A DNA stretch of 35,634 nucleotides from Syntrophaceae bacterium (GTDB lineage: Bacteria > Desulfobacterota > Syntrophia > Syntrophales > UBA2185), in NCBI GenBank assembly GCA_003142635.1, contig PLMX01000197.1, positions 1 to 35,634 of the forward strand. The letters are read 5' to 3'. Each line of letters opens with the position of its first letter. Within the stretch, counting starts at the first letter, position 1. The translations under genes were made by a program, and so were the position numbers. Shown one piece after another: positions 2,925-35,634 of the stretch. The notes beneath the pieces are model-generated. The model did no database searches. It saw nothing but the letters and a program-made list of their open reading frames with translations, and was not told the origin of the DNA.

Positions 2925-4958
2925 ATGGCTACAAAAAAGAAACTTTCAAGAACAAGAAATATCGGTGTGGTGGCCCATATAGATGCAGGCAAGACCACTG
3001 TCACCGAAAGAATACTCTTCTACACGGGGATATTGTACAAGATGGGAGAGGTTCATGACGGCGAAGCCGCAATGGACTGGATGCCGCAAGAGCAGGAGAG
3101 GGGAATAACGATTAGTTCCGCTGTTACGGCCTGCACCTGGGAGAATCATGATATCCAGATAATTGATACTCCGGGCCATGTGGATTTTACCATGGAGGTT
3201 GAACGGTGCCTGAGAGTTCTTGATGGGACGTTAGTCGTGTTTTGCGCCGTTGGCGGTGTTGAACCACAATCAGAAACAGTCTGGCACCAGGCGGATAAAT
3301 ATGGCGTCCCCAAAATAGCTTTTATCAATAAGATGGACAGGGTCGGCGCTGATTATTTCGGTACCGTCAAGATGATGGGTGAAAGGTTTAATTCAATACC
3401 GTTACCGATACAGATACCTCTCGGTGAGGAAGATCAGTTCAGGGGCATCATAGACCTGATCAGACAGAAGGCGGTCACCTGGGATGACAGTACGCTAGGG
3501 TCGTCTTATTCGGTGTCAGATATTCCATCTGACGTTCTTTCGCAGGTCAAAGAGCATCGTGAGAAGCTGATTGAATCACTCGCCGAGATGGATGATCATA
3601 TTGCGGAGAACTATCTGGAGGGAACAGTCGTTTCGGAAAAAGAAATGATAAGAGCCATCAGGCAGGCGACAATCTCTCTAAAGGCTGTTCCCGTAATGTG
3701 CGGTTCCGCCTTGAGAAATAAAGGCATTCAGCCGATACTTGATTCTATCGTTAATTTTCTTCCTTCGCCGGATGATATCCCTCCCGTTAGGGGTTTCAAT
3801 CCTGTGACGAAGAAGAAAGAGGTGCGACACAGCCGTGAAGATGAGCCCCTTGCAGCCCTCGCGTTCAAGATCAGGCAGGATGAGGGCAGAAAGCTGACGT
3901 ATCTGAGGGTTTATTCGGGTCTCATAAAGGTGGGCGATGCAGTGTATAATGCCAGCATCGGGAAAAGGGAAAAAATTGCGCGACTATTGAAGATGCACGC
4001 CAATAAACGGGAAAGAATCGAAAGGTGCGGTGCCGGAGATATCGTTGCCGTTCTGGGTCTCAAGGACACGACGACGGGAAATACGATTTGCGATGAATCC
4101 CATCCGATTCTTCTCGAACCTATTGAGTTTTATAAACCCGTCATAAGCCAGGCCATAGAGGCCAAGACGCCGGCTGATCAGGAAAAACTGACAGTCGCGC
4201 TGGCCAAGCTTATAGAAGAGGATCCCACAATTGAGGTGAAGTATAATGATGAGACCGCTCAAACCGTAATTTCGGGCATGGGCGAGCTTCACCTGGAAAT
4301 AGTCATTGATAGATTGAAAAGAGATTTCAGTGCCCATGTTAATGTCGGTAAACCGCGAGTTGTGTATCGGGAAACAATTCAAAAGAAAGTAGAAATCGAA
4401 GGAGTCTTTGAAAAGGAGCTTGGCGAGAAAAAACATTTTGGTCATGTTCGTCTGTTGCTTGAACCGAGGGGCAGGGGAGAGGGTAACGAAATTGTCATAC
4501 AGACCGCCGATGCTGCAATACCGGAAGAATTCCATACCTCCATCCATGAAGGCATTGAAGAAGCGACCCTCAGCGGTGTAATTAAGGGTTACCCGATCGT
4601 GGATATCAGGGTAACCGTGACCGGGGGATCCTTTAAAGAAGGGGAATCTACGACGCTCGGGTATAAGATAGCGGCGTCATCCGCTGTCAGAAATGGTTGT
4701 TTGCAGGCCGATCCGATACTGCTTGAGCCGATCATGATGGTGGATGTCATCGTGCCCGGAGAATTTATGGGCGAAGTAATAGGGGATATAAATGCAAGAG
4801 GCGGAGAAATTCAAGCCATCACGCCGAAGGGAACGATAAGTGAGATCAGGGGCAAGGTACCCCTGAGGGAGATGTTTGGATATTCAACGGACCTGCGCTC
4901 TGCAACTCAGGGCAGGGCCACTTTCTCCATGCGATTCTTCGAATACGGTAAGAGTTGA
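2925..4958 (+). CDS. fusA: Elongation factor G (secondary copy, EF-G family GTPase)
   Basis: A 677-residue translational GTPase. G-domain motifs numbered from ATG 2925: P-loop AHIDAGKT (18-25), RGIT of switch I (59-62), DTPGH (81-85), NKMD (135-138) and CGSA (about 263). The downstream EF-G domains are all present, including the GMGELHLEIVIDRL segment and the C-terminal domain ending near FGYSTDLRSATQGRATFSMRF. EF-G moves tRNAs and mRNA through the ribosome and helps recycle it. The gene stands alone rather than in a str operon with rpsL, rpsG and tuf, so it is probably a second EF-G. An upstream ATG at 2889 would add 12 residues and overlap the previous stop; I prefer 2925 because homologues begin close to the MATKKKLSRTRNIG segment. 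Confidence 0.9.
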   Translation: MATKKKLSRTRNIGVVAHIDAGKTTVTERILFYTGILYKMGEVHDGEAAMDWMPQEQERGITISSAVTACTWENHDIQIIDTPGHVDFTMEVERCLRVLDGTLVVFCAVGGVEPQSETVWHQADKYGVPKIAFINKMDRVGADYFGTVKMMGERFNSIPLPIQIPLGEEDQFRGIIDLIRQKAVTWDDSTLGSSYSVSDIPSDVLSQVKEHREKLIESLAEMDDHIAENYLEGTVVSEKEMIRAIRQATISLKAVPVMCGSALRNKGIQPILDSIVNFLPSPDDIPPVRGFNPVTKKKEVRHSREDEPLAALAFKIRQDEGRKLTYLRVYSGLIKVGDAVYNASIGKREKIARLLKMHANKRERIERCGAGDIVAVLGLKDTTTGNTICDESHPILLEPIEFYKPVISQAIEAKTPADQEKLTVALAKLIEEDPTIEVKYNDETAQTVISGMGELHLEIVIDRLKRDFSAHVNVGKPRVVYRETIQKKVEIEGVFEKELGEKKHFGHVRLLLEPRGRGEGNEIVIQTADAAIPEEFHTSIHEGIEEATLSGVIKGYPIVDIRVTVTGGSFKEGESTTLGYKIAASSAVRNGCLQADPILLEPIMMVDVIVPGEFMGEVIGDINARGGEIQAITPKGTISEIRGKVPLREMFGYSTDLRSATQGRATFSMRFFEYGKS

Positions 4959-25527: not shown

Positions 25528-25574
25528 GCTCTGCTCCTCGAAGCTACATCAGAAAGGCCGTCTGCTCACGTTTT

Positions 25575-25763
25575 TTAAAATAGATTGATTGTCCATTTTG
25601 CAATGTAGAATAGAATGGTTAGCGTAATAGTTGTAACGATTGCTTCAATGATAAAAATTCGTATGCTGAAAGTCAGCTTTTTTTCGGCATGACCGACATT
25701 CGTATAGAATTGACGACCGAGTGAAACTAAAATTGCAATGGCAATTATCCAGAAGATTGCCAT
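25575..25763 (-). CDS. Small membrane protein
   Basis: A 62-residue protein with two predicted membrane helices (about 2-18 and 34-58) joined by a polar loop (RQFYTNVGHAEKKL). A good ribosome-binding site (TAGGAGG) precedes the ATG. No family recognised. Confidence 0.6.
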   Translation of the reverse strand: MAIFWIIAIAILVSLGRQFYTNVGHAEKKLTFSIRIFIIEAIVTTITLTILFYIAKWTINLF

Positions 25764-25903
25764 ATTCTTTGACCTCCTATGATTTCTTGCGCGACTGTTA
25801 TTTTGAAGCGTGTTTTGGGCTTATTTCTTTGGTTTCTTGTCCTGCTTCTTGAGACCCTTGGAATGTTATTCATCGGGGCGTTTGTTTAAAAACCTGCCTC
25901 TAT

Positions 25904-26161
25904 CTACTGGGGCTCAATATCACTAAGCTTGCGAATCTTGTTTCTGAGTTCATCCGTCTTTTTTTTGTGGTCTTTCTTAATGTCAGATATTTCCTTATTC
26001 TGAGCCTCTTTCAAAGTATCAAGTTCAGACTGAAGACTGTTTTGCTCATTTTCAGAGTTCTTCAACCGAGAGGAAAGATCCCTACACTTAAGAACCAACC
26101 CAAGCGCGAGGCAGGTTAAGCTGACAATCAATGTCCATATTGCATACTCGGGCATGAGCAT
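25904..26161 (-). CDS. Small membrane-anchored coiled-coil protein
   Basis: An 85-residue protein with one N-terminal membrane segment (about 7-25) followed by a long charged coiled coil (SSRLKNSENEQNSLQSEL and onward). The start is uncertain (Met1 or Met3) and no clear ribosome-binding site is seen. Topology resembles phage spanin-type or division-associated small proteins, but nothing identifies a function. Confidence 0.5.
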   Translation of the reverse strand: MLMPEYAIWTLIVSLTCLALGLVLKCRDLSSRLKNSENEQNSLQSELDTLKEAQNKEISDIKKDHKKKTDELRNKIRKLSDIEPQ

Positions 26162-26212
26162 ATCGTCAACCAGGCATATAAATGAAAACTAAAAAACAGG
26201 TAAATAATATTT

Positions 26213-26356
26213 TCACGTTTTCTTTTTTTCGTACTTTTTCAAGGGGTCTTTAATAGCTTCTTCTAAGAGGTCGTTTTGGCGCTTGTCAGTCTCGATGGAA
26301 AGACATCTCGATGATGGTGTTTTTGTTTTGCATTTCTTACGTTCTCTTTTCCACAT
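26213..26356 (-). CDS. Putative 47-residue basic protein
   Basis: Starts MWKRERKKCKTKTPSSR and ends KDPLKKYEKKKT; very rich in Lys, no recognised domain, no strong ribosome-binding site. It lies just outside the integrated element. Weakly supported. Confidence 0.3.
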   Translation of the reverse strand: MWKRERKKCKTKTPSSRCLSIETDKRQNDLLEEAIKDPLKKYEKKKT

Positions 26357-26444
26357 ATCTTTACTTTATCATGTATTTACAACAACTTCAAATCTAAAAT
26401 AAACAATGGTTGACAATCAATCAGGATATTTCTTATTGAAATTA

Positions 26445-26490
26445 TGGCGGGCGATCCGGGACTTGAACCCGGGGCCTCTGGTTCCGGAGA
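26445..26490. repeat. Left attachment repeat (displaced 3' half of tRNA-Arg)
   Basis: 46 bp, 43 identical to 34322-34367, from the encoded CCA end to the anticodon loop. The three differences are at 26459, 26462 and 26469 (all C or G here, A or T in the tRNA). Two of them are the partners of a single T-stem pair (G-C here, A-T in the tRNA), so the pairing is kept. This is the expected remnant of the original tRNA 3' end. Confidence 0.88.
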
Positions 26491-26597
26491 GGGTTCAAGG
26501 AGGGTAGAGCAAGAAGTTGAAATTGTGCAAGTAATTGATTTTTCAGAAAGCAGGTTGTATAAACAGCTTACAGTAAATACGGTAAAAAAAAGGAAAG

Positions 26598-26614
26598 TGT
26601 CACATTTTGTCACA
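26598..26614. promoter_or_regulatory. Left arm-type site pair, TGTCACA-N3-TGTCACA
   Basis: TGTCACA at 26598-26604 and 26608-26614, one helical turn apart. An identical arrangement occurs inside the right end (34248-34264). Their location about 110 bp inside the attachment repeat suggests integrase or excisionase arm sites. Confidence 0.5.
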
Positions 26615-26638
26615 ATCCGGGGATAGCGATTCGAACTG

Positions 26639-26669
26639 GGGGTTACGGTTTACGCCGTGACCCCTTTTT
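26639..26669 (+). terminator. Rho-independent terminator reading rightwards from the element's left end
   Basis: GGGGTTACGG (26639-26648) pairs with CCGTGACCCC (26655-26664), ten pairs including one G-U, with a TTTACG loop and then TTTTTCTT. It would block plus-strand transcription entering from the chromosome. The last codons and the stop of the minus-strand gene at 26643 lie inside it. Confidence 0.7.
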
Positions 26670-27380
26670 CTTGGATTGCGGATGTTCTCTCTTCCTATTG
26701 TGTTGACTTGTAAGGTCGTGGTTTGATGTTTTCCTCCGGTTCCAAGACCAATAGAGGTTGGTACAGTGGGTAGAGCACCGGGCCTTAGTTTTATTCTTAG
26801 TGCGGTCCACAAACCATTTTCCGCAAACGCTACACTTCTTAAGCCTTCCTAAATCTATATTTTGAGAATAGCACTCCCAGAGTAAAAAAAGAATTTTCTG
26901 ACTTTTAGTTATGAACCGGGACCGTTCAGGGTCGGAAATCAATTTTTTTTGTAGCTCTGGATTATCTTTGAGGAGTATTTCAAAGATGGGTAATGGTAGA
27001 GTGGTTGCTTGAATTTCAATGTTTCCTGTAATTCTACGTCCTTCAAATCTCATCAAAAAAGGAAGATGTGTTGCAATATCATTGAAACGGAAAAGGGGCG
27101 TCCTTGGCGCGGGCTCAAATCTCGTTTGTATTATTTCATCTCTCAGTTCAACCCAATCTGTTCTAGATAAGGGTTTGCTGAGCAGCTCTTCAAGACCTAT
27201 GACTAATGGATAAGCGGGATCGCTAGGCGGGGTATTATTCAGAGTAAAAACGAAAAAATCTAATTTGCGCCACTTGTCCCTGTAAAGGAAGAGCTGCGAA
27301 ATATCAGAATAGGTTGGATCTTCACCTACAAGTTGAAAAATTTTTTCTCTCTCTTTTTTAGTTAGTTCGTATTGTCTCAT
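26643..27380 (-). CDS. CGNR-like zinc-finger protein
   Basis: A 245-residue protein whose C-terminal part carries a four-cysteine finger: Cys183, Cys186, Cys202 and Cys206 in CSVCGKWFVDRTKN and RCSTHC. This matches the CGNR finger of predicted stress-type regulators (C-x2-C-x-x-FVD-x-(S/T)-x-N), except that the final CGNR is replaced by CTNLYW. Residues 1-160 would be the ligand or ABATE-like domain, and a basic tail follows. It is probably a DNA-binding regulator. AGGGG stands 6 nt before the ATG. The gene is divergent from the excisionase operon, with an inverted-repeat operator between them, as expected for a switch gene or for a cargo regulator. Confidence 0.65.
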   Translation of the reverse strand: MRQYELTKKEREKIFQLVGEDPTYSDISQLFLYRDKWRKLDFFVFTLNNTPPSDPAYPLVIGLEELLSKPLSRTDWVELRDEIIQTRFEPAPRTPLFRFNDIATHLPFLMRFEGRRITGNIEIQATTLPLPIFEILLKDNPELQKKLISDPERSRFITKSQKILFLLWECYSQNIDLGRLKKCSVCGKWFVDRTKNKTKARCSTHCTNLYWSWNRRKTSNHDLTSQHNRKREHPQSKKKGSRRKP

Positions 27381-27418
27381 ATCAATCCCCTACTAGCTTT
27401 CAGCGTTATCTTTGATGA

Positions 27419-27466
27419 CATACAAGGTATAGCGATTTGACTTTGTATGGCATTATGAAGTATTGT
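27419..27466 (+). promoter_or_regulatory. Operator-promoter between the CGNR gene and the excisionase operon
   Basis: TTGACT (27437-27442) and TATTGT (27461-27466) with an 18-bp spacer form a plausible promoter for the rightward operon. An inverted repeat, CATACAA (27419-27425) and TTGTATG (27443-27449), overlaps it and is suited to repressor binding. Confidence 0.45.
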
Positions 27467-27501
27467 TTCATAAAAAGCAAGGAATATTAAGAGGGGTTGA
27501 T

Positions 27502-27681
27502 ATGGAAAGGTTATTGAACGTTAAACAGGCGGGGGAAAAACTTTCTATCAGTGTCTACACCATCCGGGCGTGGGTTGCTGAAAGACGACTTCCACACGTC
27601 CGGTTAGGGCGTCGAGTAGCTTTTCGCCCAGAAGACCTTGAGGCATTCGTCAAAACCAATACCGTCGCGGCCCGAAAATAA
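27502..27681 (+). CDS. Excisionase-family helix-turn-helix protein
   Basis: A 59-residue MerR-like HTH of the excisionase DNA-binding family: MERLLNVKQAGEKL, SVYTIRAWVAERRLPHVRLG and RRVAFRPEDLEAFV form the recognition helix and wing. Such proteins bend DNA at attachment sites or act as small regulators. ATG 27502 has GGGG 5 nt upstream; the open frame from 27463 adds 13 residues that do not belong to the family. It is the first gene of the replication operon. It may be the true excisionase, with the HTH at 30068 acting as an AlpA-type regulator, or the reverse. Confidence 0.75.
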   Translation: MERLLNVKQAGEKLSISVYTIRAWVAERRLPHVRLGRRVAFRPEDLEAFVKTNTVAARK

Positions 27682-27729
27682 GGATTCAAATCATCCACGG
27701 CTTTTTTTACGATATTGGAGAGAAAAGAA

Positions 27730-27987
27730 ATGAAAACAAAAGTTACAGAAAAGATGATTCCTGTCCATGATCCGCACCTAGTCGCATTTCTTCTACTGCG
27801 AAGTTTCATTCCAAAACTCACAATACTGAACGGCCGCATCACCTGGAGTTATGAGGACCCGACGGTCAGCGAGGCTATTCAGGATTTTTATGGTGGGCAG
27901 CGCGTCACGGCCATTGACTTTGTGGAGGCTTTGAAAAAAGTCAAAAGTCAGATGTATGGCGCGAAGAGCATGGGGGCGGGCCGATGA
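27730..27987 (+). CDS. DUF5659-like small protein
   Basis: An 85-residue protein: a variable start, then VHDPHLVAFLLLRSFIP, a beta region (ITWSYED) and a helix YGGQRVTAIDFVEALKKVKSQM. The pattern resembles DUF5659 proteins common in phages and satellites next to replication genes. GGAGAGAA precedes the ATG; the TTG at 27715 is part of that site. It overlaps the replication gene by 4 bases (ATGA), so the two are translationally coupled. Function unknown. Confidence 0.6.
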   Translation: MKTKVTEKMIPVHDPHLVAFLLLRSFIPKLTILNGRITWSYEDPTVSEAIQDFYGGQRVTAIDFVEALKKVKSQMYGAKSMGAGR

Positions 27988-29669
27988 CTAGTGACCTTCA
28001 CCCTGACCATCGACGGGACCTTGAAAAATCCGGGCTATCCCCCGAGACGATAAAAGGCGCTGGCGTCTACTCTGTCCCGCCGGATCAGATAAAGAAGATC
28101 ATGGGATGGGATGCGCCGGTTAATTCCCTGCTTGCTTTCCCCTACCACGGAACGGATTTTATCCGATATAAATTATTCCCGCCATTGACTGACAAGAACG
28201 GCAAGGATCAAAAATATTATCAACAGCGAGGCTCCGGGATTCGTTTATACAGGCCGGTCGGATTTGATGACAAGGCCGCTGTAATTCGATTTACTGAAGG
28301 TGAAAAGAAGGCTCTAAAAGGCACGCAGGAAGAGCTCAATGTGTGTGCCCTGGGTGGGGTCTGGAATTTCGGAACGAAAGATGACAACGGCCAGGCGTGG
28401 CTCATTGAAGACTTTGACCAAATTGAATTAAACGGGCGGATCGTTGAGATTGTCCCGGATGCTGACTTCCGCATAAAGGAATCAGTCGCACACGCTGTTT
28501 ACAGATTCGGGACCCTTCTTGAGAGCAAGGGCGCAACGGTCAAGGTTGTGTGTCTCCCCGGCGTGATGAAGCTGGACGGCTACCTTGTAAAATACAGCAC
28601 AGAAGATTTCCTCAAGCTCCCGCGTATTACTATTGATGATCCCTTTTTCCGGCCTTCTATCGTTAGGGAAAAGGGTCTTGCCTATGCGATAGGTCAATCA
28701 GTCCTCAGCATACAATCGCTCTTGAAGAAAAAGATCGAACCCCGGCCCTTCTACCTTTGGCCCTGGCTGCGTGCGGGTACGCTTGCCATGATTTACTCAA
28801 CGAGGGGATACGGGAAAACCTTCCTCTCGCTTGTCATATCCCTGGCGCTCACCCGGAAGCTGTCAATAGGAAATTGGCGCACCGATAAAATTGTGGGTGT
28901 TCTTTATGTAGATGGGGAAATGCCTCTTGAGGACGTAAAAGACCGGGCGGACCTTCTGATAAAAGGGTTATCGCCTGAGCTCGCACCATTTCATATTTTA
29001 TCGGCAGCAGCTATGCAGGCGGACGGATGGCCTACTCCTAACCTGACAAACGTGAGATGGCGCGAGGCCCTTTCGCAGTATCTTACCGAATGCGGAATAT
29101 ATCATGTGCTGATTCTCGATAACATTGCATCGCTGACGCCTGGGGTCCCGGAAGGTAAAAAAGAAGATTGGGACGAAGTCAACCAGTGGCTGCTATCGCT
29201 GCGCTTTATGGGCCTGGCTGTCATTCTGATTCATCACGCTGGCAAGAGCGGAGATCAGCGAGGGACGAGCGGAAGGGAAGATGCTCTTGACGTTACGATA
29301 AAGCTCACACGCCCGGCGGGATACAGGCCAGAGGATGGCTGCGTCTTTGATGTGGAATTTAGTAAAGCACGCGGCGTTTATGGAAGCGGCGCCGCGTCTT
29401 TCAATTTCCGGATTGTCCAGAATGGAGAGGGCGGCCTGTCCTGGACTACCGACGCCGTAGGATCGGACAGCAAGGGGAAAATTGTTGCCTTAATAGGTAA
29501 CGGGATAGCTCAGAAGGATATATCCGCTCTCCTGGGTTGCTCTAAGGCATGGGTGAGCAGGTGCAAGAGCAAGGCCGTGAAAGATGGATACCTCTCAAAG
29601 AGCGGAGAACTTACACCGGAAGGGAAAATTTATTGTGAGGAAATTGACGTTGATGAACTGCTTGTTTGA
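27984..29669 (+). CDS. Replication protein: toprim-like domain plus RepA-type RecA-fold helicase
   Basis: A 561-residue two-domain protein. The N-terminal half (about 40-215) resembles the DUF3854/toprim primase fold: TEGEKKA (about 103-109) supplies the Glu and PDADF (Asp159, Asp161) the DxD metal site. The second half is a RepA/AAA_25 ATPase: Walker A STRGYGKT (272-279), with Ser in place of the first Gly; Walker B VLILDNIA (about 374-381); and the HHAGKSGDQRGTSGRED sensor segment. The C-terminal 70 residues contain a helix-turn-helix (GIAQKDISALLGCSKAWVSR). Primase-helicase fusions of this kind start replication of phages, plasmids and satellites. The iteron-like array begins 18 bp after its stop, so this is the likely initiator for that origin. 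Confidence 0.78.
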   Translation: MTSDLHPDHRRDLEKSGLSPETIKGAGVYSVPPDQIKKIMGWDAPVNSLLAFPYHGTDFIRYKLFPPLTDKNGKDQKYYQQRGSGIRLYRPVGFDDKAAVIRFTEGEKKALKGTQEELNVCALGGVWNFGTKDDNGQAWLIEDFDQIELNGRIVEIVPDADFRIKESVAHAVYRFGTLLESKGATVKVVCLPGVMKLDGYLVKYSTEDFLKLPRITIDDPFFRPSIVREKGLAYAIGQSVLSIQSLLKKKIEPRPFYLWPWLRAGTLAMIYSTRGYGKTFLSLVISLALTRKLSIGNWRTDKIVGVLYVDGEMPLEDVKDRADLLIKGLSPELAPFHILSAAAMQADGWPTPNLTNVRWREALSQYLTECGIYHVLILDNIASLTPGVPEGKKEDWDEVNQWLLSLRFMGLAVILIHHAGKSGDQRGTSGREDALDVTIKLTRPAGYRPEDGCVFDVEFSKARGVYGSGAASFNFRIVQNGEGGLSWTTDAVGSDSKGKIVALIGNGIAQKDISALLGCSKAWVSRCKSKAVKDGYLSKSGELTPEGKIYCEEIDVDELLV

Positions 29670-29686
29670 CAAAATCGTTGACCGCC

Positions 29687-29878
29687 GGTTTACCAGTACA
29701 AATGTACCCTTTGTACTTGGTAAACTTCCGGTTGTTTACTGTTACAGTTTACTGGTTAACCAAGTCTATCTTGTTGAATTAATAAGATTATTGAAAGGCA
29801 GTTTACTAAGGCAGTTTACTGGTAAACCAGTTTACTACCCAAGTGCCAGTTTACTACCCATTTTTTACTGGTAAACTG
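29687..29878. repeat. Iteron-like array, candidate replication origin or operator
   Basis: Ten GTTTAC cores in 190 bp. Seven read on the plus strand, at 29688, 29734, 29747, 29801, 29814, 29830 and 29849, the last six as GTTTACT and five of them as CAGTTTACT. Three are inverted, as GTAAAC at 29720, 29822 and 29871. Two copies meet as the palindrome GTTTAC-TG-GTAAAC (29814-29827). No ORF covers it. The array lies directly after the replication protein gene, which is typical of iteron origins; multiple repressor sites would look similar. Confidence 0.7.
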
Positions 29879-29880
29879 AG

Positions 29881-30067
29881 TTCAGGGGGCATCGTGAAGA
29901 AGTCCAGAAGAGAGAAAAAGGTTCCTCATGTAAGCCCCGTTAACTCGTTTAAAAAACTTGCGCACCGAGACAGCGGGTAGTAGAAAAACGCCCCGAGCGT
30001 CGCCAGGGGGGGCAAGGGGGGCCGGACAGGAGTCCCTTAATGGCCCCGTACTTTTAGGAGTGAGAGG
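29881..30067 (+). other. Leader with long G-runs before the AlpA-like gene
   Basis: Between the iteron array and the HTH gene. It holds two long G-runs, G7 (30006-30012) and G6 (30016-30021) separated by CAA, with quadruplex potential, and a 28-codon frame starting GTG at 29892 that is too short to call. No clear promoter is visible. Confidence 0.35.
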
Positions 30068-30292
30068 ATGGAAGGAACGCAGCACATAGAAGTTGATCCA
30101 TTGTTAGACGCGAAGCAGGTCAAGCAGCTTCTGAGATGCAGCCTTCCGTTTGTGTATAAGCTGGCAGAGAGGGGGCAGATCGCTTGCATCCGCATACCGT
30201 GTCAAACCTTAGGGACCAGGAGGAAGGAGCTCGTAAGGTTCAAGCATGAAGATGTGACTCGTTTTATTGAGGCCCATTACCGGAGGGTATGA
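30068..30292 (+). CDS. AlpA-like helix-turn-helix protein
   Basis: A 74-residue winged HTH: LLDAKQVKQLLRCSLPFVYKL, then LAERGQIACIRIP and the wing RFKHEDVTRFIEAHY. This is the AlpA/excisionase fold found in P4-like and PICI-like satellites, where AlpA switches on integrase and excision functions. GGAG stands 9 nt before the ATG. It follows the iteron-like array and could regulate from, or bind, it. Confidence 0.7.
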   Translation: MEGTQHIEVDPLLDAKQVKQLLRCSLPFVYKLAERGQIACIRIPCQTLGTRRKELVRFKHEDVTRFIEAHYRRV

Positions 30293-30359
30293 CCTCTGGT
30301 TATGACATCAGGGTACGTGACGAATAGTTCAATAATATCAAGGCATAAAAAACAGCGTG

Positions 30360-30436
30360 TGACATGAAGTGTCAATTAATCGGGTTGAGGGAAACAAGGC
30401 TCGTTAGCAAAGTTCTCAAGAGGGGAGGTTGAGAAC
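30360..30436 (+). promoter_or_regulatory. Inverted repeats in the leader of the terminase-small-like operon
   Basis: TGACA-N5-TGTCA (30360-30374) is a palindrome suited to a dimeric repressor. Further on, GTTCTCAA (30412-30419) pairs with TTGAGAAC (30429-30436) around a GAGGGGAGG loop, 52 nt before the start of the operon's first gene. Confidence 0.4.
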
Positions 30437-30488
30437 CCTCAGAGGGTCAACAAGGGGTAACGTTAATAAATGTAGGAGGGGAACACAG

Positions 30489-31082
30489 ATGGAGAAAGAA
30501 AGTGTAGACAGAAACCAGCGGATACTTCAACTTCGCCGGGAGGGAAAGAGCATCCGGCAGATCGGGAAGGAAGTGGACTTGTCGGGTCCACGGGTACACA
30601 AGATTTTGAAGAGGATGCTGCCCAGGCCGGAGAGCATGGAGAGGTTGACCAAGAAGGAGCAAAATTTTGTACTTGCAGTAATCGAGGGGAAGACGCCGAC
30701 AAATGCAGTACTCGAAAGCCATGATGTAAATTCAAGAGAGAGCGCTAAGGCCCTGCAGAAGACCCTTTTGAAGAAGGATGACATTAAACTTGCCATCTCG
30801 GAGTATCTACAGATTTACGGCTTAACCAAGGGCTACAGGGTGAAGAAGCTGAAATCGCACGTTGATAATCGTGACCCAATTATTTCTCTTCGGGCCCTGG
30901 ACCAAAGCTGGCGCCTGGATTCTTATCCTGCAAGCAATGTGAATATCGTTAGTGTGAATATTACACCCGTCGATCTAAGCCGGTATCTCAACAAAGGGCC
31001 AAAGACAGAGACCGCAGCGGAAGAAGTCATTGACATAACGCCCACAAAAAATGAAGACGAAGAAAAACATAAGGAGGATTGA
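30489..31082 (+). CDS. HTH protein with terminase-small-subunit-like region
   Basis: A 197-residue protein. Residues 6-40 form a resolvase-type helix-turn-helix (RILQLRREGKSIRQIGKEVD). Residues 50-130 (LTKKEQNFVLAVIEGKTP, then NAVLESHDVNSRESAKALQ and a helix ending with ISEYLQ) resemble small terminase subunits of the phBC6A51 type, whose hallmark is LTxKQxxFVxxxxxG followed by AA-type helices. Its 60-residue tail is acidic. Small terminase subunits recognise the pac or cos site; in PICI satellites a private copy redirects packaging. It stands apart from any large subunit. AGGAGGGG precedes the ATG at 30489. Alternatively it is simply a DNA-binding regulator, since the resemblance was judged by eye. 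Confidence 0.45.
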   Translation: MEKESVDRNQRILQLRREGKSIRQIGKEVDLSGPRVHKILKRMLPRPESMERLTKKEQNFVLAVIEGKTPTNAVLESHDVNSRESAKALQKTLLKKDDIKLAISEYLQIYGLTKGYRVKKLKSHVDNRDPIISLRALDQSWRLDSYPASNVNIVSVNITPVDLSRYLNKGPKTETAAEEVIDITPTKNEDEEKHKED

Positions 31083-31084
31083 AC

Positions 31085-31483
31085 ATGGAAGAAGAAGCAA
31101 GACACCTAATCGACCCAGAAGTATCGGCTAGCACCAAAGGTTATACCCCTTTGAGAATGCCCCGGCCCCCACAACCCAGAGTAAGCTCCACCGGCGTGGA
31201 TACGGTCTTTGTGCGCGATCTCCCGCGATTCCTACTGGACCGATTCCGCTCGACATTAAAATGGGAAGGCCCCCGGCGCTTACATGAGAGCATGCGCTAT
31301 TACGTGGAGCTCCTGGGTGAGGCCCGCGTCCTTGACGCTCGGACCGCGCGGAATCTGGAGGCCCAAGCAAGGAGCATAGAGGAAAACCCTGGGGAAGCAG
31401 GCGAATTTTTAAAGAGTGAAATTGAACCATATCTAAAAGAACTCGAGGCGACGGCCCGGGGAGAGGGGGAAAACGATGGATGA
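31085..31483 (+). CDS. Unknown protein of the terminase-small-like operon
   Basis: A 132-residue soluble protein with a Pro-rich, flexible N-terminus (about 1-40) and helices after residue 55 (SMRYYVELLGEARVL and EAQARSIEENPG). No domain recognised. GGAGG lies 7 nt before ATG 31085; it starts 2 bases after the preceding stop and overlaps the next gene by 8 bases. Confidence 0.6.
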   Translation: MEEEARHLIDPEVSASTKGYTPLRMPRPPQPRVSSTGVDTVFVRDLPRFLLDRFRSTLKWEGPRRLHESMRYYVELLGEARVLDARTARNLEAQARSIEENPGEAGEFLKSEIEPYLKELEATARGEGENDG

Positions 31484-32075
31484 CACGATTTTTGACAAAA
31501 ACATAAGAGCCATAATGAAGTTGGTTGGAGATCTTCGGGAGGCGCACCGGGTGTCTCTCTTTGACAAAACCGCAGCCGCACAAGAGCCTCTCACAAAAGA
31601 GTTAGCGGCAAAGGAAGCCGAGGCCCTTGAGCTGGCCGAGTTATATGAGAAAACAAAACCCGTGGCGGAAGCAAAGATCAGGCTATTACAACATGATGCA
31701 GACGTAGCCATAGTGAAGGGTGATGAGGCTAAGGCCATTCGTCTTCGTCAAGAGGCAGAGGCCGTCAAGAAAGACCTCGCCGCAATCAAAGAGCGCGAAC
31801 AAAAGTGCTATATTCAAGAGCTGACTAAATTTAAGTTGCGGGGGGCCGCCGGAGAGATTTACGAGGCCGTCTATCCGGGAATTAGAAAATCCCTGATTGA
31901 CATTCAAAAGCTACTCGTCGAACTGCTTGATGGCACAGTAACCCTGCTCGAATCCTTCAACCAGGCCCACAACCTTCATGGGAGAGTTGACCCCAACGAC
32001 TTGACCCCACAAGAATACGGCGTAGAGGAGCCGGTCTGGCGATCCCTCTGGATGTGGTACTCCGGGCGGAAATGA
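31476..32075 (+). CDS. Long coiled-coil protein, unknown
   Basis: A 199-residue protein, helical and Ala/Glu/Lys-rich from about residue 30 to 110 (ELAAKEAEALELAELYEK and following), suggesting a coiled coil, followed by a compact C-terminal part with a Trp-rich end (WRSLWMWYSGRK). It overlaps the upstream gene by 8 bases. Coiled-coil proteins in this place could act as scaffold or size-control proteins of a satellite, but no motif shows it. Confidence 0.6.
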   Translation: MDDTIFDKNIRAIMKLVGDLREAHRVSLFDKTAAAQEPLTKELAAKEAEALELAELYEKTKPVAEAKIRLLQHDADVAIVKGDEAKAIRLRQEAEAVKKDLAAIKEREQKCYIQELTKFKLRGAAGEIYEAVYPGIRKSLIDIQKLLVELLDGTVTLLESFNQAHNLHGRVDPNDLTPQEYGVEEPVWRSLWMWYSGRK

Positions 32076-32166
32076 TTTGTTACCCGGGGTTTCTCAGTAT
32101 CGCATGACGGCAAAGATACCAGAGATAATGCGTAGGACGCATTTTTAAGGGGCTTTATGACCGGCA

Positions 32167-32361
32167 ATGAAGAATTCTATCATGCTGCCCTGCCCGATCT
32201 GTGGCGAGCCCTTTAAAAAGGCCAGGCCGTGGCAAAAAGTATGCTCCCCTGTGTGCCGTCGCAAGAAGTGGCAGATCAAAATGTTTTCGGATATGGTCAA
32301 GCAGATCGCCGACAATATGATTTCCGATTTTGCCCGTAAGGTGAAGGCTAAAGAGAGTTAA
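32167..32361 (+). CDS. Small zinc-ribbon protein
   Basis: A 64-residue protein with Cys9, Cys12, Cys26 and Cys30 (CPICGEPFKKARPWQKVCSP then VC), a likely single Zn site, and a basic helix behind it. The C-x2-C...C-x3-C layout parallels that of the protein at 26643. Probably nucleic-acid-binding. The ribosome-binding site is weak. Confidence 0.55.
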   Translation: MKNSIMLPCPICGEPFKKARPWQKVCSPVCRRKKWQIKMFSDMVKQIADNMISDFARKVKAKES

Positions 32362-32367
32362 AAAAAT

Positions 32368-32423
32368 GGGAATTATATATTTGCGTAAACCAACGTAATG
32401 GGTTACTTATGTATATAATTCCC
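32368..32423. repeat. 56-bp palindromic element, copy 1
   Basis: Arms GGGAATTATATA (32368-32379) and TATATAATTCCC (32412-32423) are perfect 12-bp inverted repeats; inside, GTAAACC pairs imperfectly with GGGTTAC around AACGTAAT. Copy 2 (32854-32909) is 53/56 identical. Confidence 0.85.
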
Positions 32424-32463
32424 ATAATTTAAGATTCAAGTGAATCTTTGGCAGGAGGTGAAT

Positions 32464-32853
32464 ATGAAAAAACTTTTCCTTCTAATCTTTATCGTGCTTC
32501 TGTTCCCTTCCACATCATTTTGCGGGGGTTTTACTTCTTACGATTTTTTTGGACCCACAAGCTGTCACTTTGTCACTGATCCGCTGTTTTCCAGGGACAG
32601 GATCGCCCAGGAAGAATTTCTACCTAAGTGCATTAATGATTTGATTAGGGGAATAGAGGAAACGCGTGAGAAAACCTCGGAGGACAGTAAACTCTTGCCC
32701 CTAAGAATCGACACGCTTCAGGAGTCGCAGCATTTCCTGGAAGATAAATTGAAAGACGCGGAATTAGAAATAGAATCGCTCACAAGAAGAATCAACATGC
32801 TCGGAGATGAAGTTAGGTTTCTCAAACAAAAAGCAATGAGAAAGAATAAATAA
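32464..32853 (+). CDS. Secreted coiled-coil protein bracketed by twin palindromes
   Basis: A 129-residue protein with a clean Sec signal peptide (MKKLFLLIFIVLLFPSTSFC), a short region with two further Cys, and a long C-terminal coiled coil (TREKTSEDSKLLPL; SLTRRINMLGDEVRFLKQ). GGAGG lies 5 nt before ATG 32464. The gene sits exactly between the two 56-bp palindromes, and the second starts at the base after its stop. It is probably a cargo gene acting in the periplasm or at the cell surface. No family recognised. Confidence 0.72.
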   Translation: MKKLFLLIFIVLLFPSTSFCGGFTSYDFFGPTSCHFVTDPLFSRDRIAQEEFLPKCINDLIRGIEETREKTSEDSKLLPLRIDTLQESQHFLEDKLKDAELEIESLTRRINMLGDEVRFLKQKAMRKNK

Positions 32854-32909
32854 GGGAATTATATATTTGCGTGACCCAACGTAATGGGTTACTCATGTAT
32901 ATAATTCCC
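32854..32909. repeat. 56-bp palindromic element, copy 2
   Basis: Same 12-bp arms as copy 1 (32854-32865 and 32898-32909), with inner stem GTGACCC/GGGTTAC. It differs from copy 1 at three positions, all in the inner part. Confidence 0.85.
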
Positions 32910-32933
32910 TAAAAAAATATTTCATTTTTCCCC

Positions 32934-32968
32934 TTGACAATGGTGTAAACATGGTTTATATGAGAGTT
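32934..32968 (+). promoter_or_regulatory. Promoter and self-operator of the Xre repressor
   Basis: TTGACA (32934-32939, 6/6) and TATATG (32957-32962, 4/6) with a 17-bp spacer predict a start at 32969. The palindrome TAAAC-ATG-GTTTA (32946-32958) spans spacer and -10, suited to autorepression, and its half-site GTTTA is the core of the iteron array. Confidence 0.6.
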
Positions 32969-33154
32969 ATGAAGAGCTGGACAGGTGACCAAATAAAGAG
33001 ATTTAGAAAGCGCCTTAACATGACACAGGTTGAGTTTGCTGCCATGACGGGTGTGTCCAGGGTTTTCATAAACTATCTTGAAAGGGGGCTGAGAAATCCG
33101 AACAAGACCATGAAGCTATTGTTGACTTGTCTTGAAAAGCAGAAAAGGAAATGA
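32969..33154 (+). CDS. Xre/Cro-type repressor, probably translated from a leaderless mRNA
   Basis: A 61-residue helix-turn-helix protein: QIKRFRKRLNMTQVEFAAMT, then GVSRVFINYLERGLRNPNKTM. This is a minimal lambda-Cro/Xre fold with no C-terminal domain. The open frame begins at 32951, but the promoter predicts transcription from 32969, exactly the first base of an in-frame ATG, so I take that as the start, without a ribosome-binding site (compare lambda cI from PRM). It lies 15 bp before the integrase gene and is probably co-transcribed. It could be the element's master repressor. Confidence 0.7.
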   Translation: MKSWTGDQIKRFRKRLNMTQVEFAAMTGVSRVFINYLERGLRNPNKTMKLLLTCLEKQKRK

Positions 33155-33169
33155 AAGGGGGAAAGTGAA

Positions 33170-34288
33170 ATGGCAGTAAGAAAACGCGGTAGCACCTGGC
33201 AGATTGATTATATCGATCCTGCTGGGAAGCGGATCCGGAAATCCTTCAAGAAAAAGAAAGACGCCGATGCCGAGCTCGGGAAGCGTGTCTCTCTTATCGC
33301 TGAGGGCCGGTATCTCGACGTTAAGAAGGATTGTAAAACGACAATGGGTGAGCTGCTTGATCGCTATGAGGAAAACTTCAAGGATCAACGGAGCTTCTTT
33401 AGCTGGAAATCATTATGCGTAAAGAAGTTCAAGGAGTATTTCGGAGAGAAATCCCTGCTAAGTCAGATCAGATTCGTTGATATTGAAACCTACAGAAACC
33501 GCCTGAGACAGACTCCGGTGAGAGGCAAGGCTCAAAAGGTGCGTAGTGTAGCAAGTGTAAACCGGGAAATGGCAGTCATGCATCACGTCTTTCAAAAAGG
33601 TGTCGAATGGGAGATGATCGAGAAAAGCCCCTTTGAACGTGGCAAGGGTATCTTCTCTAAAGAGAATAACACACGGACGCGGTATTTGACGCATGAGGAA
33701 ATCTCAAGGCTCCTGAGTAGCTCCCCGGATCACTTGAAGGATATCATCGTTTGTGCCGTGCATACCGGAATGAGGAAATCGGAAATTCTCTCGTTGAAGT
33801 GGTCACAGATCAAGGGCGGTTTCATATACCTGACGAGGACGAAGACGGACGAATCCCGGCAAGTGCCTGTCAGTGACGAATTGAAAAAGCTGTTTGATGA
33901 TGTGCGCCGAAAGCAGGGCGGAAAATCAGATTATGTTTTCCGGTATGAGAGACCTTCAAAGAAAGAGGAAGGGCACAAGGTCGTTAAGTTGGTTGTGGAC
34001 AATAATCCGATATTGGACGTTAAGCATTCATTCACAAGTGCCGTGAAGAAAGCCGGTATTGAGGATTTCAGGTTTCACGATTTGCGTCATACGTGCGCAA
34101 GCCATTTAGTGATGAACGGAGCAAGCCTCAAGGACGTGCAGGAGATCCTGGGCCATAAGGATATGACCATGACCCTGAGATATGCTCATCTTTCACAGGA
34201 GCACAAAAAGAAAGCGGTCAATCTTCTGAATGGACTGACCGCCAGCGTGTCACAAAATGTCACAAATGCCGCTTTTGACCTGCCTTGA
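33170..34288 (+). CDS. Tyrosine-type site-specific integrase
   Basis: A 372-residue phage-type recombinase. The N-terminal arm-binding domain (about 1-58), SAM-like core-binding domain (about 60-160) and catalytic domain follow in order. Catalytic residues: Arg202 in HTGMRKSEIL, Lys225 in TKTD, His303 and Arg306 in HDLRH, His329 in GHKD and nucleophile Tyr338 in RYAHLS. It integrates and excises the element at the tRNA-Arg site, which begins 34 bp after its stop. Its last codons contain the right-arm TGTCACA pair. GGGGGAAAGTG precedes the ATG. Confidence 0.95.
   Translation: MAVRKRGSTWQIDYIDPAGKRIRKSFKKKKDADAELGKRVSLIAEGRYLDVKKDCKTTMGELLDRYEENFKDQRSFFSWKSLCVKKFKEYFGEKSLLSQIRFVDIETYRNRLRQTPVRGKAQKVRSVASVNREMAVMHHVFQKGVEWEMIEKSPFERGKGIFSKENNTRTRYLTHEEISRLLSSSPDHLKDIIVCAVHTGMRKSEILSLKWSQIKGGFIYLTRTKTDESRQVPVSDELKKLFDDVRRKQGGKSDYVFRYERPSKKEEGHKVVKLVVDNNPILDVKHSFTSAVKKAGIEDFRFHDLRHTCASHLVMNGASLKDVQEILGHKDMTMTLRYAHLSQEHKKKAVNLLNGLTASVSQNVTNAAFDLP
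34248..34264. promoter_or_regulatory. Right arm-type site pair, TGTCACA-N3-TGTCACA
   Basis: TGTCACA at 34248-34254 and 34258-34264, the same 10-bp period as the left pair (26598-26614), inside the end of the integrase gene and about 60 bp from the attachment repeat. Confidence 0.5.
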
Positions 34289-34321
34289 CTGTCTCTAATG
34301 CTCACTAAGTAGTTGATATCT

Positions 34322-34367
34322 TGGCGGGCGATCCGAGATTTGAACTCGGGGCCTCTGGTTCCGGAGA
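34322..34367. repeat. Right attachment repeat inside tRNA-Arg
   Basis: The tRNA's 3' half, matching 26445-26490 (43/46). The uninterrupted 21-bp block nearest the 5' half (34347-34367, over the variable loop, anticodon stem and loop) is the probable exchange region. Confidence 0.88.
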
Positions 34368-34398
34368 CCAGCGCTCTATCCAACTGAGCTAATCGCCC
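34322..34398 (-). tRNA. tRNA-Arg (anticodon CCG), integration site
   Basis: A complete 77-nt tRNA on the minus strand with encoded CCA: acceptor GGGCGAT/ATCGCCC, anticodon stem CTGGT/ACCAG around CTCCGGA (anticodon CCG), T-arm CCGAG-TTCAAAT-CTCGG. Because the element is inserted at its 3' side, bases 34322 to about 34367 come from the element and the 5' half from the host. Confidence 0.95.
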
Positions 34399-34508
34399 GA
34401 TGTGCGGGGACTTAATTATCGGCGCAGAGTCGATGCAAGTGAGATGTGTCCATATACCTTATGGCTCACATACTCTACTGCCTTCTCAGCATCTACATTC
34501 TTTGTTAG

Positions 34509-35378
34509 TTACCGAGACAGTGAAAGCTCCGCTAATATCTTTTTTACCGGATGGCTCTTATTCATGCAGTAAAGGTGGAGACCGGCTATTTCATTCTTTA
34601 TCAGATTATCGATCTGAATAATCGCGTATTCTATTCCATATTTTTCAACCTCTTGCGGCTTGTCCTTGTTCATCTCCGCCTTCTCACGCAGCCGGGGAGG
34701 TATCCTGACACCGGCAAGAGTTGCGATCCTTATGATCTGACTATAGTTCAGGATGGGAAAAATTCCTGGTAACATGGGGACGTCAATTCCAAGTGCTGTT
34801 GCCTGATCCCGGAAATTGTAAAAAGCGTCATTATCGAAGAATAGTTGGGTAATAATAAAATCCGCCCCTGCATCTACCTTACGCTTCAGATTAATCATAT
34901 CTGCCTTCAGGCTGGGCGCCTCGATATGCCCTTCCGGATAACCGGCCACTCCCACTGAGAAATTATTACGTGCCTTAATGAACTGTACGAGTTCGTTTGC
35001 ATACTCAAATCCACCCGCTGTTTTTATGAATCTCTCCGTGCCTTCGGGCGGGTCACCCCGCAGGGCAAGGATGTTCTCAACATTTTCCTCCTTGAGCAGG
35101 TCGAGAATGACTGCTATGTCATCTTTCGTGGACTGCACGCAGGTTAAATGGGCCAGTACTTCGAGATTAAATCCATTCTTGACCCTCGAGGAGATCTCTA
35201 TGGTTTTCTCCCTCGTGCCTCCTCCCGCGCCATAGGTTACAGAGATGAAATCAGGCTTCAACTCCCCGAGCTCCGTAATCGTCACATAGAGGTTTTCAAG
35301 ATTACCTTCCCTCTTGGGTGGGAAGACCTCAAAGGAAAGGATAAATCTCTTTTGAGAAAAGAGGTTCTTAATTTTCAT
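34509..35378 (-). CDS. metF: 5,10-methylenetetrahydrofolate reductase
   Basis: A 289-residue flavoprotein with a TIM-barrel fold that reduces methylene-THF to methyl-THF, feeding methionine synthesis and, in acetogenic or syntrophic metabolism, the methyl branch of the Wood-Ljungdahl pathway. Motifs: FEVFPPKREGN (with the catalytic-type Glu), FISVTYGAGGG, HLTCVQST, ILALRGDPP, the AGYPEGHIEAPS loop and ADFIITQLFFDN. No C-terminal zinc or SAM domain, so it is the short bacterial form. No neighbouring metV is visible, so coupling to that partner cannot be assessed. Confidence 0.95.
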   Translation of the reverse strand: MKIKNLFSQKRFILSFEVFPPKREGNLENLYVTITELGELKPDFISVTYGAGGGTREKTIEISSRVKNGFNLEVLAHLTCVQSTKDDIAVILDLLKEENVENILALRGDPPEGTERFIKTAGGFEYANELVQFIKARNNFSVGVAGYPEGHIEAPSLKADMINLKRKVDAGADFIITQLFFDNDAFYNFRDQATALGIDVPMLPGIFPILNYSQIIRIATLAGVRIPPRLREKAEMNKDKPQEVEKYGIEYAIIQIDNLIKNEIAGLHLYCMNKSHPVKKILAELSLSR

Positions 35379-35634
35379 AGATCGGCTCCCGTAAACGTGC
35401 TTGGGAAAATGTCATCATGAGAAGAAATTGTCAATATATTTTATGTTTCTGGAGGCGTTACGGAACTCGCCTGGGTGAATGCGGGTCCCGCCCTTGGATG
35501 CGTTTTAATCTTTTCTTGTGCTCGGGCACCTTCATCTTGCACGGACATACATGGAGTCTGTCGGAGTCAGTGCTTTGTGACATGCGAGTTTCTGCGGTTT
35601 TATCTTACAAGAGGTTCATCCGGTTGATGCGTAC
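35379..35634. other. Region upstream of metF to the window edge
   Basis: No firm gene is visible. A plus-strand frame from about 35498 stays open to the edge and a 41-codon minus-strand frame ends near 35461, both without a ribosome-binding site. On the minus strand TTGACA lies about 58 nt before metF but no fitting -10 box follows. Confidence 0.4.

Follow-up and report, generated by a model that had tools for sequence, protein, structure and literature searches.

Ten GTTTAC cores clustered directly 3' of the replication gene rep very likely form, as judged from sequence, the replication origin of a small element integrated in the genome of a Syntrophaceae bacterium, and the product of that gene, Rep, is very probably the protein that reads them. 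The DNA analyzed, called the window here, is a stretch of 35,634 nucleotides (GenBank assembly GCA_003142635.1, contig PLMX01000197.1). An iteron-like origin beside the replication gene had been proposed in a sequence-only reading of this DNA, and the proposal is now supported both by arrays lying 3' of rep in most of the relatives whose Rep carries a helix-turn-helix (HTH) domain and by covariation of the core with that domain. We consider it highly probable that the array is the origin of a satellite-resembling integrated element and that it would work as follows. The C-terminal HTH of Rep would bind the GTTTAC cores, giving two groups of bound Rep on either side of an A+T-rich center of 48 bp; this center would melt, and Rep's own RecA-type helicase ring would load and unwind the DNA, with primers made either by the TOPRIM-like part of Rep or by a partner. 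After excision, the element would be expected to replicate autonomously.

The array consists of seven direct and three inverted cores in 189 bp (Table 1). Their positions matched those given earlier, as did the count of five copies of CAGTTTACT, the perfect palindrome GTTTAC-TG-GTAAAC (at 29814 to 29827), and the 18-bp spacer between the end of rep and the first core. The window as a whole contained 25 copies of GTTTAC compared to 9.3 expected (0 of 100 shuffles). When the 211-bp region was subjected to 2,000 dinucleotide-preserving shuffles, the best 6-mer was present in 3.3 copies on average and 9 at most, with 10 copies reached in 0 of the 2,000, and no 6-mer occurred seven or more times in any other 200-bp stretch of the window. 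These shuffles demonstrate that the clustering of the cores is far beyond chance and that dinucleotide content does not account for it. The cores fall into two sets around the A+T-rich center, a layout that was absent from the sequence-only reading, as was the integrated element.

Table 1. Positions in the window of the array, of rep, and of the other features of the integrated element
Feature	Position	Strand	Remarks
Integrated element	26445-34321		insertion site, 3' end of tRNA-Arg(CCG); length, 7,877 bp
attL	26445-26490		duplicates the 3' end of tRNA-Arg; 46-bp repeat, 3 mismatches to 34322-34367
HTH_17 regulator	27463-27681	+	left of the rep operon; family match
Rep	27984-29669	+	561 aa; DUF3854/TOPRIM-like domain, AAA_25 RecA-type helicase domain, C-terminal HTH
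Rep HTH	29469-29582	+	residues 496-533; three-helix prediction; proposed iteron-reading domain
Iteron array	29688-29876		ten GTTTAC cores; putative replication origin
Left iteron set	29688-29752		cores on + strand at 29688, 29734, 29747; on - strand at 29720
Hairpin	29695-29717		AGTACAAA-TGTACCC-TTTGTACT; palindrome between the convergent cores at 29688 and 29720
A+T-rich center	29753-29800		48 bp; 71% A+T (77% in 29763-29797); proposed melting region
Right iteron set	29801-29876		cores on + strand at 29801, 29814, 29830, 29849; on - strand at 29822, 29871
HTH_17/excisionase-like regulator	30068-30292	+	family match
Terminase-small-subunit-like protein	30429-31082	+	weak match, PHROG 51 E=8e-6; relative in L053 E=3e-9
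XRE-like regulator	32951-33154	+	from sequence; homologue at the same position in L053
Tyrosine integrase	33170-34288	+	abuts the tRNA; Pfam Phage_integrase E=3e-36
attR	34322-34367		inside tRNA-Arg(CCG) 34322-34398, - strand

Rep matched the Pfam families AAA_25 (E=3e-22) and DUF3854 (E=1.5e-10), and residues G275, G277, and K278 of its nucleotide-binding loop were invariant. No solved structure was close to Rep by sequence, and none of the phage records held a relative covering most of the protein. An AlphaFold2 model (built on 14 sequences; mean pLDDT of 80 and pTM of 0.55) was matched by Foldseek to T7 gp4 over its length and to the RSF1010 RepA helicase, with TM scores of 0.71 to 0.75 when normalized by target; as modeled, the protein contains the RecA-fold helicase core of the RepA, DnaB, and T7 gp4 group of hexameric helicases. 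Rep is like RSF1010 RepA in the predicted fold of its helicase domain and like T7 gp4 in its overall primase-helicase order. In RSF1010, the iterons are bound by a separate protein, RepC, and T7 gp4 is not known to have an origin-binding HTH; the Rep of the window, by contrast, combines HTH and helicase in one polypeptide.

Relatives of Rep were found by an alignment search, whereas a single-protein search of genome and viral contigs gave nothing. Searches of the order, the phylum, named genome contigs, and viral contigs provided approximately 170 loci with a Rep match (171 in the neighbor-gene count), and those that are named belong mostly to Desulfobacterota and Nitrospirota. For 111 nonredundant Reps with enough downstream sequence, the 300 bp directly 3' of rep were scored for a strong array. 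One was present there in 67 of the 90 loci with an HTH versus 2 of the 21 that lack the HTH (Fisher P=5e-8); of the remaining HTH-bearing relatives, 14 had a weak array only and 9 had none within 300 bp. An array missing from relatives that share this replication protein had been named in advance as the result that would count against an origin, and with these numbers the proposal held. The 61 arrays with a defined core had a median of 9 exact cores, a median span of 185 bp, a first core at a median of 15 bp past the stop codon, and a commonest same-strand spacing of 11 to 12 bp. Their central gaps were mostly 35 to 71 bp long and in 46 of the 61 were richer in A+T than the rest of the array (P=4e-7). 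The core itself varied among elements and included GTTTAC, GTTTAG, GTTGAC, GTTCAC, GTTTCC, TGTCCC, and others.

The identity of the core was found to follow that of the Rep HTH, which answers a check suggested by the sequence-only reading, namely whether array and replication protein covary among relatives. Core similarity was correlated with HTH identity after ATPase identity had been removed (partial r=0.35; 0 of 1,000 permutations), and the corresponding value for the linker at residues 441 to 490 was r=0.003 (P=0.47). A weaker, separate effect remained for ATPase identity (r=0.24), as ancestry would lead one to expect; ancestry is controlled only in part by these tests, and the loci compared were those in which an array had been found. 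Across 42 elements with GTTNNN cores, the four columns that best predicted the core, out of approximately 280 Rep columns, were those of R526, S520, A522, and Q510, all within the HTH. At residue 520, Asp went with GTTGAC (4 of 5), Ala with GTTCAC (5 of 6), and Ser or Thr with GTTTCC (18 of 19), and at residue 526, Lys went with GTTTCC (19 of 19), Gln with GTTTAG (3 of 3), and Arg mostly with GTTTAC and GTTGAC; the Rep of the window (S520, R526) agrees with its GTTTAC core. An ATPase tree of 58 tips required at least 24 changes of core, and the same residue-core pairings were seen on separate branches of it. Identity at residues 520, 522, and 526 was 0.31 in the closest pairs with different cores compared to 0.78 in pairs with the same core, and in one pair of loci whose ATPases are 86% identical (L086 and L088), the change from GTTTCC to GTTGCC was accompanied by T520N and K526R.

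Several further structures were noted in or near the arrays. A hairpin of a C run and a G run (four to nine C residues, a short T/A-rich loop, and four to seven G residues) was present between two iterons in 25 of 69 related arrays (36%) and in 1.4% of background windows; examples are L007 (about 3263 to 3278), L020, L068, and L099. The iterons flanking it were nearly always convergent, and it possibly has a role in priming or strand opening. The convergent pair in the window encloses a hairpin of a different type, which is a possible counterpart of that of the relatives. The G7-CAA-G6 run at 30006 to 30021, which had been suggested to belong to the same origin, was present as described. This part of the proposal found no support in the window, and the run was not counted in the origin because it lies 130 bp past the array and has no unusual structure (z=-0.76). 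Weak terminator-like stems were seen near it on the minus strand (29987 to 30008). Among the relatives, dense hexamer arrays away from rep were noted in L138 (ATTCAG, 18 copies), L141 (AAAGAT, 17 copies), L161 (CTTGGC, 21 copies), and L075 (GTTGCA, 15 copies). A second DUF3854 protein, an 841-codon frame, is encoded at 1469 to 3991 of L173, on a contig of the window's own genome (C56), with nine copies of AGCGTCA around the 3' end of the frame (about 3600 to 4000), and L174 has seven copies of GACGATA at the same place. The DUF3854 proteins of these two loci possibly form a sister family in which the array overlaps the rep gene.

The boundaries of the element were defined by comparison with a sister genome, G001, in which the DNA corresponding to window positions 25553 to 26490 and 34322 to 35627 is adjoining. 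The two matches overlap by exactly the 46-bp repeat, which demonstrates an empty site in the sister genome and precise integration. Like phage-inducible chromosomal islands (PICIs), the element has an integrase, here beside tRNA-Arg, and a specific attachment site. It also encodes a DUF5659 protein and several proteins without an assigned family, and a scan of ten proteins of the element revealed no phage structural genes.

The element is probably a phage satellite. The 15 relatives bounded by att sites were 6.7 to 11.7 kb in size and nearly all located at tRNA genes, and one of these, L053, has an order close to that of the window (rep, array, terminase-small-subunit-like gene, HTH_17, XRE, integrase, and tRNA-Arg). 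A lone phage gene for capsid or packaging functions is present in some relatives, as it is in satellites, and the sizes and gene contents of the relatives together fit phage satellites. A less favored though still plausible reading, which overlaps the best explanation in that the array would remain an origin, would make the element a plasmid-like one, small and integrative, or else a prophage that has decayed. The weakness of the terminase-small-subunit match, the lack of a known helper phage, and the genes at 31079 and 31476, for which no family match was found, are in its favor; the size range of the att-bounded relatives, however, is unlike random decay, and a single weak partial match to Rep was obtained in 72,556 plasmid records. 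In att-bounded relatives of 9 to 12 kb, a lone phage gene for a head component (the major head protein or a head protease) or for the large terminase subunit was noted at L064:9665-10864, L065:6786-7910, L058:10882-12027, and L092:11372-12994, a content that capsid-forming satellites might have.

We also weighed roles for the array other than that of an origin. It could be an operator or control region for downstream genes, bound by HTH_17, XRE, or another repressor of the element, since a clustered and partly palindromic array is able to hold a repressor, the HTH_17/excisionase-like regulator is encoded 190 bp downstream, and the XRE-like regulator also lies within the element. The array, however, accompanies rep across many elements whose other genes differ, and homologues of the downstream HTH_17 protein and of the XRE protein were present in only 5 and 1 of 171 loci, respectively. 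In addition, no sigma-70-like promoter was found in 29600 to 30200, approximately ten sites over 190 bp are many for an operator, and the covariation of the core with the Rep HTH argues against an array bound by a repressor only, making this role very improbable. Plasmid iteron arrays can also serve as control loci, and binding alone is no proof of initiation, so that the array might be a Rep-binding control or incompatibility locus (acting in copy number control, handcuffing, or partition) with the true origin elsewhere in the element. In most loci, however, no comparable second array was found, and the layout of two sets around an A+T-rich center is that of the plasmid-replicating origins of PICIs (PMC6092414). 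We give a control locus very little credence. The AAA_25 helicase-type domain of Rep does not fit a replicon of the type in which a helicase-less iteron-plasmid initiator recruits the host helicase. As a separate observation, L111 has a second cluster of its core (GGGACA, seven copies) about 3.8 kb downstream of rep, apart from its main array.

The interpretation of the array as an origin was compared to known systems. Origins of PICIs are located immediately 3' of rep and have two iteron sets around an A+T-rich region, and the rep-ori segment of EcCICFT073 replicates a plasmid (PMC6092414). The window has this same arrangement and, like EcCICFT073, a Gram-negative PICI whose origin (L176) contains 11 copies of GGTAGA in the 300 bp after rep, combines a short-core array with a small, integrase-carrying element. 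The order of rep-ori followed by a terminase-small-subunit-like gene (a weak match) would be compatible with that of PICIs, but the integrase of the window is at the right end and in the same direction, whereas that of EcCICFT073 is at the left. The two initiators fall in different Pfam families (D5_N/DUF5906/Pox_D5 for EcCICFT073 and DUF3854/AAA_25 for the window), and no HMM or meaningful BLAST match was obtained between them, in a comparison that covers the EcCICFT073 Rep only among PICI Reps. At the level of sequence, the origin layout is therefore one already known from PICIs, and the Rep type differs from the PICI Rep tested. By analogy, the replicon of the window may work like that of a PICI, and the element is a candidate PICI. 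In SaPI Rep and SCCmec Cch2, the C-terminal domain of an initiator helicase serves to read iterons located downstream (PMC7581432), as is proposed for Rep of the window. Their helicases are of the DUF927 or D5/Primase_Cterm types and the SaPI primases are AEP (PMC7581432), and these published descriptions set them apart from the AAA_25/RecA-type Rep with its TOPRIM-like domain. PLE of Vibrio cholerae is likewise a satellite whose own initiator binds iterons in its origin (PMC7145576). In a literature search that reached few subscription journals, no paper was found that connects satellites with a Rep of this type, nor any report of satellites in the phyla concerned.

An origin that belongs to a satellite or a plasmid has to stay private, and a joint change of initiator and origin specificity is seldom visible. 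The relatives described here provide dozens of natural origin-initiator pairs distinguished by a core of 6 bp and by a small number of HTH residues, making the code directly testable by single substitutions. They also indicate that the same origin layout is served by initiator helicases without detectable homology, and the combination of an AAA_25-HTH gene with an iteron array after it offers a sequence signature for finding such elements. Taken together, we see an even chance that these loci represent a widespread satellite-like lineage in Desulfobacterota and Nitrospirota, in which a single primase-helicase-HTH protein of the T7 gp4/RepA type would act as a self-loading origin reader, the layout of PICI origins would have been reached with an unrelated initiator, and a readable code centered on residues 520, 522, and 526 would underlie more than 20 switches of origin specificity.
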